In this document: piece after piece, positions 12,137-40,244 of the stretch
How positions within the stretch are numbered: the stretch's first letter is position 1
Layout: each line of letters opens with the position of its first letter
Source: a virus
IMG/VR virus record: IMGVR_UViG_3300009499_000003
Coordinates: 1-40,639 of that record
Strand: one strand, 5' to 3'
DNA: 40,639 nt
The notes under the pieces: model-generated
Seen by the model: only the letters and a program-made list of their open reading frames with translations
Told to the model about the DNA's origin: nothing
The model's database searches: none
Translations under genes and position numbers: made by a program

Positions 12137-12802
12137 CTATTTTTTGTCTTTGTCTCGGAAGTTATCGGCATATATCACTCGTGCTGGTTTCCCTTCCGAA
12201 GACGCTTTTCCGCCAGAAGTTACAAGAGAATCGTGAGTTTTTTTCTTGTCAGCAGGTTCTTTAGGCTTTTTATTCAGCCGTTTGGCTACTGTTTTGGCTT
12301 GCTCAACAGTCGTCAATTTAAGGTCTTTCATCGTGTCTTTGAGTTCTACCGGGTCAACGCCTTCTGTACTAGCAATCTTCCAGATTTCAATTTCCAGTTG
12401 CGTTTCCCGAGCAGCCTTAATCTCTGACTCATGTTCAGCCTCTCTCTTATCTTGGGCAGCATCTCGCTCATCTTGTTTCTTTGTTCGCTGCCTCTCTGCC
12501 TGCTTTGACTGGTAAACTGCCAACCTATCAGGGTCTTTCTGGGCCTCTGCTAGTTCGGCTGCGTCTCTTCTTTCTTGCTCTGCCTTGTTAGCATCCTCTC
12601 TAGCTTTGACAGCAACTTCCCTATCAGATAACGATTTGTCGTCCCTGCCGCGCTTAATGCGGTCAGCTTGCAGTGCCTCTTGAAACTCATCCTCATTGTA
12701 AGTCTTGGCTTCGGTTTCCTTTGGAGTAGTCCCTTCGCTACCTTTAGGAGCCTTTTCAGCGTTAACTGAAGGGAGTCCTTCGGTTTCTTTGGTTTTGTCC
12801 AT
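12137..12802 (-). CDS. Scaffolding protein-like coiled coil
   Basis: 221 residues, extremely charged (Glu/Lys/Asp/Arg). It has a long predicted coiled coil over about residues 45-180 and a basic C-terminus. It sits immediately upstream of the major capsid gene, the standard place for a capsid scaffold. The ribosome site AAGGAGG lies before ATG12802. Two hairpins at 12827-12870 precede that site. No sequence family is certain; the call rests on composition, size and position. Confidence 0.68.
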   Translation of the reverse strand: MDKTKETEGLPSVNAEKAPKGSEGTTPKETEAKTYNEDEFQEALQADRIKRGRDDKSLSDREVAVKAREDANKAEQERRDAAELAEAQKDPDRLAVYQSKQAERQRTKKQDERDAAQDKREAEHESEIKAARETQLEIEIWKIASTEGVDPVELKDTMKDLKLTTVEQAKTVAKRLNKKPKEPADKKKTHDSLVTSGGKASSEGKPARVIYADNFRDKDKK

Positions 12803-12826
12803 GTGTAACCTCCTTAAATATAAAAT

Positions 12827-12870
12827 GCCCGCTTAAAACGGGCTCTTGTGCCACATTTGAAGGCTGTGGC
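12827..12870 (-). other. Two tandem hairpins upstream of the scaffold gene
   Basis: GCCCG/CGGGC (12827-12831/12839-12843) is followed on the minus strand by ATTTTATATTT. GCCACA/TGTGGC (12850-12855/12865-12870) lies next to it. The first could act as a weak terminator or attenuator; together they form a structured leader for the scaffold-capsid mRNA. Confidence 0.45.
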
Positions 12871-12900
12871 TACCCTTCGACCCTATTTATTTGACAATAG

Positions 12901-12909
12901 TGTTATAAT
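12901..12909 (+). promoter_or_regulatory. Extended -10 promoter of the small membrane gene
   Basis: TGT-TATAAT is an extended -10 box. No convincing -35 exists at 16-18 bp; the TTGACA at 12891 is too close. The ATG at 12916 lies 6 nt after the box, so the transcript is predicted leaderless. The 12-mer TGTTATAATTTG recurs at 25024-25035 in the same position relative to an ATG. Confidence 0.6.
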
Positions 12910-12915
12910 TTGACT

Positions 12916-13116
12916 ATGAAGGTTTCATTTAAGGGCATTATTTGGGTAATTGCCTCCATTGGTCTTATAATAACTGGTATTGTTCTACCTTGGGAATTCA
13001 CCCTCGTTATCGGCAGTTTATTGCTAGGTGCTTTTTTAGGATTTTGCTTCGGTTATTATCACCGCCGACAGGAAGAAATCGAGGACAGGAAAGATAAGCC
13101 TTCTCTACACCACTGA
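12916..13116 (+). CDS. Small two-helix membrane protein
   Basis: 66 residues from ATG12916. Two hydrophobic helices (GIIWVIASIGLIITGIVL and FTLVIGSLLLGAFLGFCFGY) are followed by a basic/acidic tail (HRRQEEIEDRKDK). It is a lone + strand gene inserted between the scaffold and the giant protein gene, with its own promoter and no ribosome site. A prophage-expressed gene such as superinfection exclusion is possible but unproven. It ends 1 bp before the convergent giant gene's stop. Confidence 0.62.
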   Translation: MKVSFKGIIWVIASIGLIITGIVLPWEFTLVIGSLLLGAFLGFCFGYYHRRQEEIEDRKDKPSLHH

Positions 13117-13117
13117 A

Positions 13118-20038: not shown

Positions 20039-20178
20039 TCGGTCTTACCTTGCTCCTTCTTTGCCCGCATCATTTGGATAAGATTGGGCTTTCCTTGTGG
20101 TTTAGCCTGTTCTGGCTTTTGTTCCAACGCCTCCCTATATTCCTTCAGATATTCCTTAATGCCATATTTAGTTGTCAT
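20023..20178 (-). CDS. Small basic protein between portal and giant protein
   Basis: 51 residues, starting MTTKYGIKEYLKEYREAL and ending KKEQGKTEWPLT. The ATG overlaps the portal stop as ATGA and the 3' end overlaps the giant gene's start by 16 bp, so it is translationally coupled on both sides. Lys/Glu/Gln-rich and helical, it probably forms a small virion or assembly factor. No family was recognised. Confidence 0.6.
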   Translation of the reverse strand: MTTKYGIKEYLKEYREALEQKPEQAKPQGKPNLIQMMRAKKEQGKTEWPLT

Positions 20179-21875
20179 GTCTCAGTCTCCTCGGCTGGCA
20201 CTCTTGGTGTTCCCTTAGCCCCACCTCCACCCTTCTCTAAAAGAGGCAACAGGTCTTCTTGCTTTGGCTCCTCCCTCTTGCCTTCTACCGGGCTTAACTG
20301 TCCTAGTGTCTGCCTTTGTCTCAAGATGGTCTTAATTCGTTGCATCAAGGTCTTAGCTTCAAGTTCCATTATCTCCCGCTCAATCCCAGTCTTGTCTTCT
20401 GCTTGACGCAAGAAGCTAAGTCCCCTATTGAAGAGGAATAAAACCTCATCTGTGTTTTCGGCTTGTTGTGATTGAAGCTCAAACTTCATGCCATCGGGGT
20501 TCTGCACCTTGAGAACTTCTCGCAGAATATAATCATCGGATACCACCCCGCGCAAAGCCTTAGCCAACGTAGCGTCGGCCGCCGTTTGTTCCTTTGATAA
20601 CAGGTGGAATTGATAGGTAATAGAAAACTCACCAGCAAAATCACTTGGGCTGTATGTATTGTAGCCCCCTGGCCGTCCTAGCTTTATCGTCTGGTTGAAT
20701 TGCACACACTGGTCAATAATCATCCTCGAAAGAGTCTGGTAGAATGAGGCAATCATGGACAGTATCGGAGCGAAGATGTCATTGCGCGCAGCAATAAGGT
20801 TTAGTATGGCCACTGAGGACAAAGGGAAGGCCAGAGTCCCATAGTCTAAGGGTGTCAGTTCCCCTCTCTGCAAGCAAGTCTCTATTATCGAGTAGAGCAG
20901 CCTGGTAGCACTCTTAATGTCGTTGACTGGTAATTGTCTGAAACCTCCATCTTTTTCTACGGGTATTACCACATCTTCTTGAAAGGGTGACTCCTCTGGC
21001 TTCTTGGCTTGGGTAGGATCGGTTACCTGAAGTTCCAATCCCCCCTTCAGTGCCTTTCTGCTCAGTGTTTTTAGAATAGTGGTAGTCTCATTTTTCTCTT
21101 TCCATAAATCACGATCAGGCCAGAAGATACTCTCACCGTCATGCTCCTGGGCATCTTCCGTATTGAACATGCACCCAATCGGACACTTGGCAATAACAAA
21201 AGGTGGGTATCCGTAAGTGTTCCCACTCTCTATGCACTTCTTTTCAATGAATACCAGCTCATTAGTAGTGTTCCAGAAGTCAATAACCTGGTTCCCGGTA
21301 TCCTTCAACTTGATTCCAATGTCTGGATATTCCCGCTCAATCTGTGCCTTTGAACGGCTACAAATAGGAGCGCCCCACATCATGCCGTTAATGTCAGTGT
21401 CGTAGGGAAGCCATCTCGTATCTACAGGCACAACATCGGGAATTATGCTGTCTTGCCCGTCTAGCTTCAAACATGAACGAGCTCCTATTCGCCCTCGAAT
21501 ACAGGCTTGCTCATTGATAAAAGCGTCTAAACTGGTAATATCCCGCTTTGGAAGATACTCGTTCACCATGTAGAAAATATCGTCCAGAAATTTCTCAATC
21601 TTAGTTGTTTGCTTATCGGTCAGGTCCTTGCCCTTAATGACTGTTTGCCTCTTGTAACTACCGGTAATAGCGATCGCCTTCTTAGCGTATAGCAGGGGGT
21701 CATTCAGGGTAACATTAGCTACATCTTTTTCATCGGCGGTATCGTCCAGATTCCTCATCTTGTAGGGTTTGAGCAGGTAAAGTTTCTCGTCCCCATCCAT
21801 GCGATCAGTGACGGGCTTCATATCCTTTAGCTCGCTCTGGACTAGCTTATATTCTTCTCTGTTTTCGTCTGACAT
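20175..21875 (-). CDS. Portal protein
   Basis: 566 residues, helical and acidic, with features of phage portal proteins. There is an N-terminal wing region, a beta-rich centre (YGYPPFVIAKCPIGCMF), a long helical stem region around residues 320-400 (QRGELTPLDYGTLAFPLSSV) and a glutamine/lysine-rich, Pro/Gly-rich C-terminus. It follows terminase and a small membrane gene in transcription order, the canonical slot. It forms the DNA-entry ring at the capsid vertex. Identification is by layout, length and synteny. Confidence 0.78.
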   Translation of the reverse strand: MSDENREEYKLVQSELKDMKPVTDRMDGDEKLYLLKPYKMRNLDDTADEKDVANVTLNDPLLYAKKAIAITGSYKRQTVIKGKDLTDKQTTKIEKFLDDIFYMVNEYLPKRDITSLDAFINEQACIRGRIGARSCLKLDGQDSIIPDVVPVDTRWLPYDTDINGMMWGAPICSRSKAQIEREYPDIGIKLKDTGNQVIDFWNTTNELVFIEKKCIESGNTYGYPPFVIAKCPIGCMFNTEDAQEHDGESIFWPDRDLWKEKNETTTILKTLSRKALKGGLELQVTDPTQAKKPEESPFQEDVVIPVEKDGGFRQLPVNDIKSATRLLYSIIETCLQRGELTPLDYGTLAFPLSSVAILNLIAARNDIFAPILSMIASFYQTLSRMIIDQCVQFNQTIKLGRPGGYNTYSPSDFAGEFSITYQFHLLSKEQTAADATLAKALRGVVSDDYILREVLKVQNPDGMKFELQSQQAENTDEVLFLFNRGLSFLRQAEDKTGIEREIMELEAKTLMQRIKTILRQRQTLGQLSPVEGKREEPKQEDLLPLLEKGGGGAKGTPRVPAEETET

Positions 21876-34645: not shown

Positions 34646-34828
34646 CTACTCCTCGGTCTCGCCTGGTAGTAATTCAGGGTCTCTCATAGAATAACGCTCT
34701 CGGTGAGCCTTCTCACGTTTCAGGGCTTCGATGCCTAGCTTCTTAGCCTTTTCAAGCCTACAGCCAGGCATAAGTGGATTATCCATAAGGTCATCTTTTA
34801 ATGATTCAATGGCTTCTTCTGGTGTCAT
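34646..34828 (-). CDS. Small helical early protein
   Basis: 60 residues: MTPEEAIESLKDDL, then CRLEKAKKLGIEALKREKAH. This MTPEEAI...GIEALKR layout is common in small phage proteins of unknown role. The ribosome site CGGAGGTAAATT lies just past the structured RNA region, so that RNA is also its leader. Confidence 0.65.
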   Translation of the reverse strand: MTPEEAIESLKDDLMDNPLMPGCRLEKAKKLGIEALKREKAHRERYSMRDPELLPGETEE

Positions 34829-34865
34829 AATTTACCTCCGACATTCTTTCAGAAATATCTATCTT

Positions 34866-35276
34866 CTGGCAGGGCTGGTGAGCTTAGTAATTGTCTCGCC
34901 ACTAAGTAGTCTCCTCTCGTTACTACTGCACCCTGCCAGTTTGCCTTCGCCTACAATGGACGCTCCACCATCGGCTTTTCTTGCACACCCAAAGCGGTTC
35001 TAGTTACCATCAGCTCACCACTTCAACTCTTTTCCAGAGTTCCCTCAGCGAAGGCTTTACTAGAGCCTGTCCACTTTCACCTTTCGGTTATCTTCGTGTA
35101 TCACTGGCTCCAGTGTTGTCCAGCCAGTAGAGACAGTTCATTTTTCATATAGACTACTACTCACGCTGCCTGTCCCCTGTCGCTTAGTGCAGTTCCTGAA
35201 GCTAAATTCACTTCACTTCAGGCTTAGATAGGTTTTCTGCCCTTTCGGTTAACACCTAATCTGGCAACTCCCTATC
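34866..35276 (-). ncRNA. Large structured RNA candidate, unassigned
   Basis: The 468-bp gap 34829-35296 has no credible reading frame but many perfect stems (minus-strand RNA). CCTGAAG/CTTCAGG pairs 35195-35201/35216-35222. ACTGGCT/AGCCAGT pairs 35103-35109/35122-35128. GCCTTCGC/GCGAAGGC pairs 34943-34950/35048-35055 and encloses AACTCT/AGAGTT. CTGGCAGGG/CCCTGCCAG pairs 34866-34874/34931-34939 and encloses two 6-bp hairpins, a three-way junction. GATAGG/CCTATC pairs 35227-35232/35271-35276. Two C-C-GAAA-G-G loops occur, and an 8-bp long-range match 34905-34912/35151-35158. I could not fit group I, group II, RNase P or tmRNA cores. Confidence 0.65.
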
Positions 35277-35277
35277 G

Positions 35278-35728
35278 GTGGCTGGCTTTACCCTATTTAA
35301 TTATTAAGGTGCGATATAAGGATTTTCTGTGCTTCTTGCACAGCCTTCTCCTCATCACTCAATCTACGCCCATAACGTCTAGCCTCTTGGAATTTAATAG
35401 CTAGTTCTGCTTGAGGTCGCTTTAGACTCAGGTAAGGGAAAATGAGGTTTAAGAATTCCCCTGCCTGCCTAGAATATATTTCCCATTGATAGCATTTGCT
35501 GTGCGTTGCTTTTGCACGGGGTTTATTATAAACACGCCCTCCATATTGAACTTTTAGCCATTCACAAAGCCAAGCACTGGTATTAGCAACACTAACCATT
35601 AAATACATAGCCTTCATTGTTTTGTTAGGTGGATGCAAATATATACATCCCTCCCCATCTAGAATTCCTGCCGTGTAAGCATACATTTCAGTTTTTCCCA
35701 TCATTTTATTTATCTCCTTTGTGGCTGG
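35278..35728 (+). repeat. 8-bp direct repeats flanking the LAGLIDADG gene
   Basis: GTGGCTGG occurs at 35278-35285 and 35721-35728, just outside the LAGLIDADG gene and its ribosome site. Removing the interval would fuse the structured RNA region to the upstream intergenic hairpin (35756-35787). This is the pattern expected of an insertion, but 8 bp is short. Confidence 0.4.
35297..35704 (-). CDS. LAGLIDADG-type homing endonuclease
   Basis: 135 residues. YTAGILDGEGCIYL is the LAGLIDADG motif (AGILDGEG), followed by a beta-rich saddle (MYLMVSVANT, CEWLKVQYGG) and KCYQWEIYSRQAGEFLN, with LSLKRPQAELAIKF typical of the family. One motif means it would act as a homodimer. Ribosome site AAAGGAGATAAATAAA. 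It adjoins a large structured RNA, as intron-associated endonuclease genes do, though no split gene was identified here. Confidence 0.84.
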   Translation of the reverse strand: MMGKTEMYAYTAGILDGEGCIYLHPPNKTMKAMYLMVSVANTSAWLCEWLKVQYGGRVYNKPRAKATHSKCYQWEIYSRQAGEFLNLIFPYLSLKRPQAELAIKFQEARRYGRRLSDEEKAVQEAQKILISHLNN

Positions 35729-35730
35729 AA

Positions 35731-35820
35731 TTATTCAATTCTTAACGTTCTATTCGGTAGCGGGGGAGTGGTTGAACCCCCGCCACCTACAACAAGGAAA
35801 GGAGTAAAGTTAGTAGTCAT
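35731..35820 (-). CDS. Possible 29-residue peptide after the recombination gene
   Basis: ATG35820 overlaps the preceding stop as TAATG. The peptide is MTTNFTPFLVVGGGGSTTPP plus LPNRTLRIE. The same DNA forms the 35756-35787 hairpin, so the frame may be incidental to an RNA structure. Confidence 0.25.
   Translation of the reverse strand: MTTNFTPFLVVGGGGSTTPPLPNRTLRIE
35756..35787 (-). other. Strong GC-rich hairpin
   Basis: GGTAGCGGGGG/CCCCCGCCACC with a 10-nt loop. On the minus-strand RNA the single mismatch becomes a G-U pair, so the 11-bp stem is fully paired only in the leftward transcript. No U-tract follows. It could be the 5' arm of the structured RNA before insertion of the LAGLIDADG gene. 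Confidence 0.5.
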
Positions 35821-36716
35821 TATCTCGCCCCATATATGGCTATTATTGTCTCCCATGCCCTCTTTCGCTGGTCAACCTTGGTTATATCGTATTCGGCAAT
35901 CTCAGCATCAACCTTGCTTTTTGATAACTTAAAGTGTTCCAAGCAGGCCGTGTAGAACTCACCGGGATTCCTGAGAATCAAGCCGGCCAAGTCTGTCTCG
36001 GGTTCAGTTACTTCGGGTTCGCCAGGGCCTTGCTTTTTTTCTTCGTCTAGTGGCTTTTTTATTCCTGTATGACCAGTATCTTCCATGTCCTGAGTGAAGA
36101 TGTCTGACAGTCTGCCAGCCGATAGCGCAGCATCCACCAAGGCTCTCTTCTTGGCCATCTTGAGAATAGTATTGACCTGAGAATAAATATCATCGTTCTC
36201 AACCCTACCGATTGTCTGCTCTTCAATCTCCGGCTCCCCATCCTCCCACTTAGCCCCGCAACCACCAGTTTTCTTGAAGCATATCCAGCCTCCACCGTAT
36301 TGCTCTTTCCCCTTAATGATTGCCTCAACACCGCATATCGGGCACTTCCGCTTAGATTCTCTCCACCTGTATTTGCCCTCCATGCTATTGCACTCACCAA
36401 GGCCCTCTGATATGATCGAGCCAGTAGCTAGGTGAATTAACCTGCACTTAATCAGGTAGCGGAATAAGGGCTGATGCCAGTCCTCAGACTTGTCCAAAAT
36501 CTCATACTGGTCCGAGAGCCCGAGGAGTTTAGCTATCTTCTCCGCGCCAGGCTTCAGTAAGGTAGGCTTCTGTGTACCCGGGATGATGCCATAGTCCAGA
36601 TCCACAATCATAGTTGAACGGACTATCTGCTGAAAGCGATTTATCGCCTGCATATCATGTCTGAACTGATCTTCATCGGGTAATGTTAGTGCTGTTAGGC
36701 TTTCTCCGTCACTCAT
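35820..36716 (-). CDS. Phage recombination-associated protein (candidate single-strand annealing)
   Basis: 298 residues. The N-terminal segment DLDYGIIPGTQKPTLLKPGA, followed by EKIAKLLGL, is shared by many phage proteins encoded with recombination functions. A zinc ribbon (CPICG and later CFKKTGGCG) lies at about residues 124-155. The helical segment KMAKKRALVDAAL follows. The C-terminus is acidic. It overlaps the preceding gene at the ATG. A DNA-annealing or single-strand-binding role is an inference, not a demonstrated family assignment. Confidence 0.6.
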   Translation of the reverse strand: MSDGESLTALTLPDEDQFRHDMQAINRFQQIVRSTMIVDLDYGIIPGTQKPTLLKPGAEKIAKLLGLSDQYEILDKSEDWHQPLFRYLIKCRLIHLATGSIISEGLGECNSMEGKYRWRESKRKCPICGVEAIIKGKEQYGGGWICFKKTGGCGAKWEDGEPEIEEQTIGRVENDDIYSQVNTILKMAKKRALVDAALSAGRLSDIFTQDMEDTGHTGIKKPLDEEKKQGPGEPEVTEPETDLAGLILRNPGEFYTACLEHFKLSKSKVDAEIAEYDITKVDQRKRAWETIIAIYGAR

Positions 36717-39599: not shown

Positions 39600-40244
39600 A
39601 TGACATTAGCAAAAAAGATAAGAGAGTTAAGGGCAGAGAGGGGCTGGACTCAGTTAGAACTAGCTAAATGCTCAGGTTTAGACAGGGGATATATTGCTAA
39701 CCTCGAAGGCTCCAAAAGCATACAGCGTCCATCCGCTGAAGCCTTACTTAAACTTGCCCGAGCCTTCAACATCAAACCAGAGGAGCTCTATCATGCTGCT
39801 GGCTATATCAAAGAAGCCAAAGGCATTTACCCACACCCTGAAACACCAGAGGAAATCCTTGACCGCTTGAGACTCGCCACCCCGCAAAGTATTCCGGTTT
39901 ATCCCTGGGAAGCCTTCCCCTTTCATGCCGGGGATGGTGTTGAACCCATTGAATATGTTTACAGAGCTCACCCTAAATCAACCAGCAAAAACATTCAAGC
40001 CTATATCGTTCATGGGGATTGCTTATCGCCTAAAATCAACGATAAAGATGTAATCATTGTTGATAGAGATGAAGCGATAGATAACGGCGATATTGCCGCC
40101 TGTCTTTGTGCTAATGAATTTCATGTCTTTCGAGTCCGCAAAGTGGCTGATCAAATTTGGCTAGAAAACAATCATGGGAAATACAAGTTTGAAGAAGTCC
40201 AAGAGATAGCCCCGGTTATTGAGTTAATAAGAAGGCTGAAGTGA
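39600..40244 (+). CDS. CI-like repressor: XRE helix-turn-helix plus S24-type domain lacking its catalytic dyad
   Basis: 214 residues. Residues 5-60 are an XRE helix-turn-helix (GWTQLELAKCSGLDRGYIAN). Residues 95-205 have the LexA/CI S24 fold: VHGDCLSPKINDKDVIIVDR aligns with the usual GDSM motif, but the Ser is Cys141. The lysine position in the strand EFHVFRVRK appears to be Phe177. The normal Ser-Lys self-cleavage dyad is therefore missing. It should still dimerise and repress the divergent early promoter; induction may not use RecA-stimulated cleavage. Confidence 0.85.
   Translation: MTLAKKIRELRAERGWTQLELAKCSGLDRGYIANLEGSKSIQRPSAEALLKLARAFNIKPEELYHAAGYIKEAKGIYPHPETPEEILDRLRLATPQSIPVYPWEAFPFHAGDGVEPIEYVYRAHPKSTSKNIQAYIVHGDCLSPKINDKDVIIVDRDEAIDNGDIAACLCANEFHVFRVRKVADQIWLENNHGKYKFEEVQEIAPVIELIRRLK

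Follow-up and report, generated by a model that had tools for sequence, protein, structure and literature searches.

What lies between two intact genes of a phage operon when 468 bp of sequence there hold no gene, and why does a LAGLIDADG gene adjoin it? The window analysed here, in full, comprises a single IMG/VR virus record (40,639 bases). It carries an integrase gene (20-1012) and a CI-like repressor gene (39600-40241), and the phage is therefore probably temperate; almost all the remaining genes run on the minus strand. Between a 298-aa gene and a 60-aa gene follow a 32-nt hairpin, the LAGLIDADG gene and the gene-free gap (34829-35296), arranged as follows.

35820..36716, minus strand: intact upstream gene of 298 aa (phrog_10048), with 80% identical homologues of similar extent
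35756..35787, minus strand: strong hairpin (35787-35777/35766-35756, one G-U pair), assigned to the 298-aa gene (3' region) and outside the RNA
35716..35753, minus strand: upstream arm of an imperfect direct repeat (box plus CCAGCCAC); local alignment score 31, p 0.0014 against shuffles
35297..35704, minus strand: LAGLIDADG gene, 135 aa, GILDGEGC motif, freestanding type (phrog_5046, E=1e-25)
35271..35315, minus strand: downstream arm of the direct repeat (box plus CCAGCCAC), same alignment
34862..35293, minus strand: body of a structured untranslated RNA, domains A-D, approximately 430 nt (fold z -4.3, no ORF, conserved 3' domain)
34646..34828, minus strand: intact downstream gene of 60 aa, its ribosome-binding site GGAGG straight after the RNA; homologues in related phages share its start

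The original prediction saw in the gap, which has no plausible gene, a candidate large structured RNA. Protein coding was rejected for both strands: the minus strand contains no ORF of at least 60 aa inside the gap, and the antisense ORFs (90 and 49 aa) have no PHROG match. Approximately 27 bases ahead of the 60-aa gene (34835-34861) recur alone in the related phage L004, in front of a different gene, which places the end of the RNA near 34862. The 60-aa protein itself belongs to a small family (MTxEEAI...LPGETKE) that recurs in related phages, sometimes in several copies per record. Elsewhere in the window, the gene at 12137-12802 is preceded by a 315-nt gap (12803-13117) in which ATTTTATATT follows a terminator-like hairpin (GCCCG...CGGGC).

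On the minus strand the gap folds with an MFE of -152.6 kcal/mol (z -4.3), a value equalled by 0 of 100 shuffles, while the plus strand reaches z -2.8. Its energy surplus over shuffles (-26.6 kcal/mol) is the largest among 82 minus-strand windows of 468 nt (81 others), the next-largest (-23.5 kcal/mol) coming from a window that overlaps the gap. By z-score, three windows in coding sequence fold as well (z -4.4 to -5.0), so that single-sequence folding is insufficient as proof. The predicted stems, three-way junction and GAAA-type CCGAAAGG loops were located as described, and the MFE fold resolves into four stem-closed domains, with AAA linkers connecting B, C and D.

35119..35286, minus strand: domain A, multibranched, closing stem CCAGCCA/TGGCTGG, holding a CCGAAAGG hairpin (MFE)
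35059..35114, minus strand: domain B, hairpin ACTGGAGCC/GGCTCTAGT with loop CCGAAAGG (MFE)
34943..35055, minus strand: domain C, 9-bp closing stem GCCTTCGCT/GGCGAAGGC (35055-35047/34951-34943), with several hairpins inside (MFE)
34866..34945, minus strand: domain D, conserved 3' domain, 10-bp stem CTGGCAGGGT/GCCCTGCCAG (34939-34930/34875-34866), with a homologue in L144
34876..35020, minus strand: candidate pseudoknot pairing TGGTGAGCT (35020-35012) with AGCTCACCA (34884-34876), a 9-bp perfect complement that by itself is not significant

Evidence beyond the single fold came from related phage contigs, collected via the neighbouring DUF5131 gene, whose non-coding gaps were then searched. One such gap, in L144, carries domain D in the form GGCAAAyTG...GGGTGC...TAGTGGCGAGA...TCACCAGCCC, with the blocks GGCAAA, GGGTGC, TAGTGGCGAGA and TCACCAGCCC common to both phages. 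A covariance model made solely from domain D of the window retrieved this copy at 38.8 bits (E=1.1e-6, 442 kb searched; next match E=2.4); in other loci, 643 kb in all, it had no match. Three pairs of the 10-bp closing stem differ on both sides in L144 with pairing kept, and 96.7% of pair cells are paired between L144 and the window, compared with 30-50% when partners are slid. As the comparison involves two sequences and 69 of 500 shuffles match its covariation, the compensatory-pair count is supportive rather than conclusive, and the weight falls on the independent E-value. A weaker third member was found in L129/L218 (19.9 bits, E=0.006; 71 kb, filters off). Given a homologue in L144 with three compensatory changes in the closing stem, domain D is very probably a real conserved RNA structure.

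Several further features of L144 deserve mention. At the 5' end of its RNA stands a promoter-like TTGACA-17-TTTAAT. Directly behind the first domain D, L144:1066-1145 resembles a second copy (GGTAAGGCTAGGGTG...GCCCTAGCC, 14.5 bits). At L144:1047-1080, CTTCACC of domain D complements GGTGAAG just downstream; in the window, GCTCACC complements GGTGAGC, its partner lying upstream rather than downstream. The two combinations possibly represent a covarying kissing or pseudoknot pair.

The remainder of the RNA yielded no supported homologue for domains A-C: the domain A model (R3) detected none. Model R1 matched nothing in 50 other phage records. When the RNA was compared by blastn with phages, plasmids and related records, matches were of chance length only, and exact 16-18-mers found no homologue in IMG/VR, matches stopping at the seed (short exact patterns being weak evidence of absence). 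A 17-mer recovered 33 matches in GTDB genomes, 16S rRNA among them, all of which we discarded as chance. The matches in G013 and L010, weak or coding, were likewise set aside. L125 has CCGAAAGGGCAGAA and GGCGAGA in common with the window and is at most a candidate, supported by neither model nor alignment.

These results bear on the reading that the gap is a decaying intergenic insert with a chance fold. The coding windows that match its z-score, together with the absence of the RNA from close relatives, speak for it; against it stand the independent L144 homologue with its compensatory changes (E=1.1e-6) and the placement of the record's best boxA-like site exactly at the RNA 5' end, and we regard a chance fold as quite improbable. 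The prediction of a large structured RNA is supported, on the strength of both the z-score of -4.3 and the covarying homologue of the 3' domain, with its length revised from roughly 550 to approximately 430 nt.

The 5' boundary is marked by a short element that also occurs upstream of the LAGLIDADG gene.

35294..35308, minus strand: CTTAATAATTAAATA, the boxA-like element that opens the RNA and shares bases with the LAGLIDADG stop codon (motif-model rank 1)
35732..35746, minus strand: GTTAAGAATTGAATA, the other boxA-like copy, lying upstream of the LAGLIDADG gene (motif-model rank 2)

boxA is a signal by which bacteria protect ribosomal RNA transcripts. In the related phages, the RNAs of L125, L129 and L120 start with CTTAACAACTGAATA or near variants, and this motif, allowing at most 2 mismatches, is found at 23 sites spread over 18 of the 47 related records (1 match for the reversed pattern), compared with 1 of 47 other phage records, a set with somewhat fewer bases. 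Chance probably accounts for several of the 23 that lie inside genes or are oddly oriented. The rest sit behind a promoter, or on or beside a stop codon that is followed by untranslated and often folded sequence: in L211, L212 and L213 the motif follows a sigma-70-like promoter by 11-22 bases, and in L204, L206, L208, L214, L217, L218 and L222 it overlaps a stop codon. The published boxA consensus is GYTCTTTAANA (PMC5725501). We read the motif as boxA because two related-phage sites, GTTCTTTAACA and GCTCTTTAACA, match this consensus perfectly and the rRNA spacer in L175 contains CTCTTTGAAAACT.

A motif model built from 16 related-phage sites ranked 35308-35294 first and 35746-35732 second among approximately 81,000 window positions. 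Both copies have three mismatches to the related-phage consensus, and consensus-like matches in the whole window are only mildly above chance (4 of 100 shuffles). A further box-like match at 20165-20179 was rejected, as it overlaps a stop-start (ATGA) with which a stretch that looks coding begins.

Two other boxed loci in related phages are worth recording. L203:1388-1468 (minus strand) encodes a tRNA-like RNA whose anticodon arm is enlarged (36 bits with the Rfam tRNA model, none by ARAGORN). A TTGCTGG/CCAGCAA stem encloses it and follows immediately on a perfect boxA, and L206 has a homologous leader. In G049, L239:566-985 is an untranslated, structured stretch of approximately 410 nt (z -2.9) behind a boxA-like box; it has AGCCTGAGCCGAG in common with L125, and G049 also holds the closest LAGLIDADG relative (L018, 46%).

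The boxes recast the relationship between the RNA and its neighbouring nuclease gene, which the original prediction had suggested might split an RNA reaching the hairpin at 35756-35787. The 8-bp GTGGCTGG repeats reported around the gene are present and form part of a fuller imperfect repeat of approximately 40 bp that includes the boxA-like box (p 0.0014). The hairpin is likewise present, with its one G-U mismatch, and belongs to the 298-aa gene rather than to the RNA, since L003 and L004 (phages approximately 80% identical) keep its counterpart right behind that gene while having neither the LAGLIDADG gene nor the RNA. With the LAGLIDADG stop codon lying in the 5' boxA-like box, the sequence supports an insertion at the RNA 5' edge, with the box and CCAGCCAC segment duplicated and the RNA body unsplit.

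Could the RNA instead be a degenerate or unusual self-splicing intron that had housed the LAGLIDADG gene? As in LAGLIDADG-bearing group I introns, a related LAGLIDADG family and a structured RNA lie close together. The window protein is related to one at L002:958-1680, where a LAGLIDADG gene sits in a group I intron (P7 GACTA 1545 / TAGTC 1578) interrupting a capsid-like gene. Rfam misses the L002 intron at E up to 0.5, which makes its silence on the window RNA (no match at the gathering threshold, nor with E relaxed to 10) indecisive for group I introns. A search for an ordered P7 (GACTA...TAGTC) recovered the L002 element and found no usable P7 inside the window RNA on either strand; a group II domain V hairpin was also absent from both strands and from the Rfam results. 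The lack of either core accords with the original prediction. Both flanking genes are intact, so no gene is split, and no known intron family with an interrupted gene emerged. The nearest LAGLIDADG relatives are freestanding or lie in other introns, none with the RNA, so the protein is no guide to it; the closest being freestanding also argues against an intron, which we consider highly improbable.

Among catalogued RNA families, none matches the window RNA. It recalls GOLLD and ROOL in being phage-encoded, several hundred nucleotides long, multi-domain and without assigned function. A further hallmark of GOLLD and ROOL is a homo-oligomeric RNA cage. In GOLLD the 3' region is conserved and the 5' region variable, with tRNAs sometimes inside (PMC12286853), and the window RNA shows the same polarity of conservation. 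The likeness is nevertheless one of style: unlike those RNAs it has no Rfam match (E up to 10), measures approximately 430 nt versus 659 nt and more than 800 nt, is led by boxA and lies in a window where no tRNA was found, whereas a tRNA-island location is frequent, if not obligatory, for GOLLD and ROOL. HEARO RNA and IscB omega-RNA are also structured RNAs of a few hundred nucleotides adjoining a nuclease gene; here the neighbour is a LAGLIDADG rather than an HNH/RuvC protein, its relatives lack the RNA, and Rfam returns no HEARO match.

Another parallel is NusB-S10 antitermination at rrn leader and spacer boxA and lambda nut, where the box likewise follows promoters or translation ends and precedes untranslated structured RNA. 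The phage boxes differ in standing in phage operons ahead of large non-rRNA RNAs and in often being one T shorter (CTTAACA for CTTTAACA), and unlike the lambda nut system no N protein or boxB was identified. One alternative is a cis-acting antitermination or leader element (nut/put-like), in which boxA and structure act on polymerase or on the gene downstream and the RNA plays no independent part. In L204, L206, L211, L214, L215 and L224 the same box stands ahead of short leaders that resemble terminators, and in L211-L213 it follows promoters, like boxA in rrn and lambda; the RNA precedes a same-strand gene in the window and the relatives examined. What speaks against a purely cis-acting element is that the window RNA has no terminator at its 3' end, that domain D is conserved and the 5' part is not, and that some 430 nt in four stem-closed domains go far beyond the size of known nut or put sites. 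We judge it rather unlikely, while still the most serious of the rivals.

We therefore favour, with moderate confidence, the view that this phage RNA represents a new family and is untranslated, independently folded, boxA-protected and co-transcribed within the minus-strand operon. The folding, the covarying domain D and the boxA-like motif with its clade-wide position are read from the sequence itself; Nus binding, antitermination, processing or liberation of a separate ncRNA, and action in trans, if any, we infer from the described role of boxA (PMC4807359, PMC5725501). As proposed, the ribosome would stop at the end of the LAGLIDADG gene and the nascent RNA would expose the boxA-like site, where the host NusB-S10 (Nus factor) complex may bind and keep Rho-dependent termination off the approximately 430 untranslated bases. 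Domains A-D would then fold, probably as a large ncRNA acting in its own right, with domain D as its putative conserved functional part. The freestanding LAGLIDADG gene would have inserted at the 5' edge, and the imperfect repeats of the box region would be a trace of this event. Counting against this explanation, no such RNA accompanies the flanking gene in its closest relatives (80% identical). Action in trans, rather than as a cis element for the operon, is our preference.

More tentatively, the RNA may be one of a class of large phage RNAs that are boxA-led, evolve fast and occur across the clade (approximately 170-430 nt, for example in G010, G017, G022, G026 and G049). Such RNAs would be made as long untranslated transcripts with borrowed ribosomal antitermination machinery and would serve as stand-alone RNA machines. 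Large phage RNAs are few and unexplained, and a boxA mark on candidates would offer a simple genomic handle for finding more, one that ties them to a known process, the Nus-factor protection of untranslated RNA from Rho. If this is true, phages use the antitermination signal of rRNA to make large RNAs of another kind.
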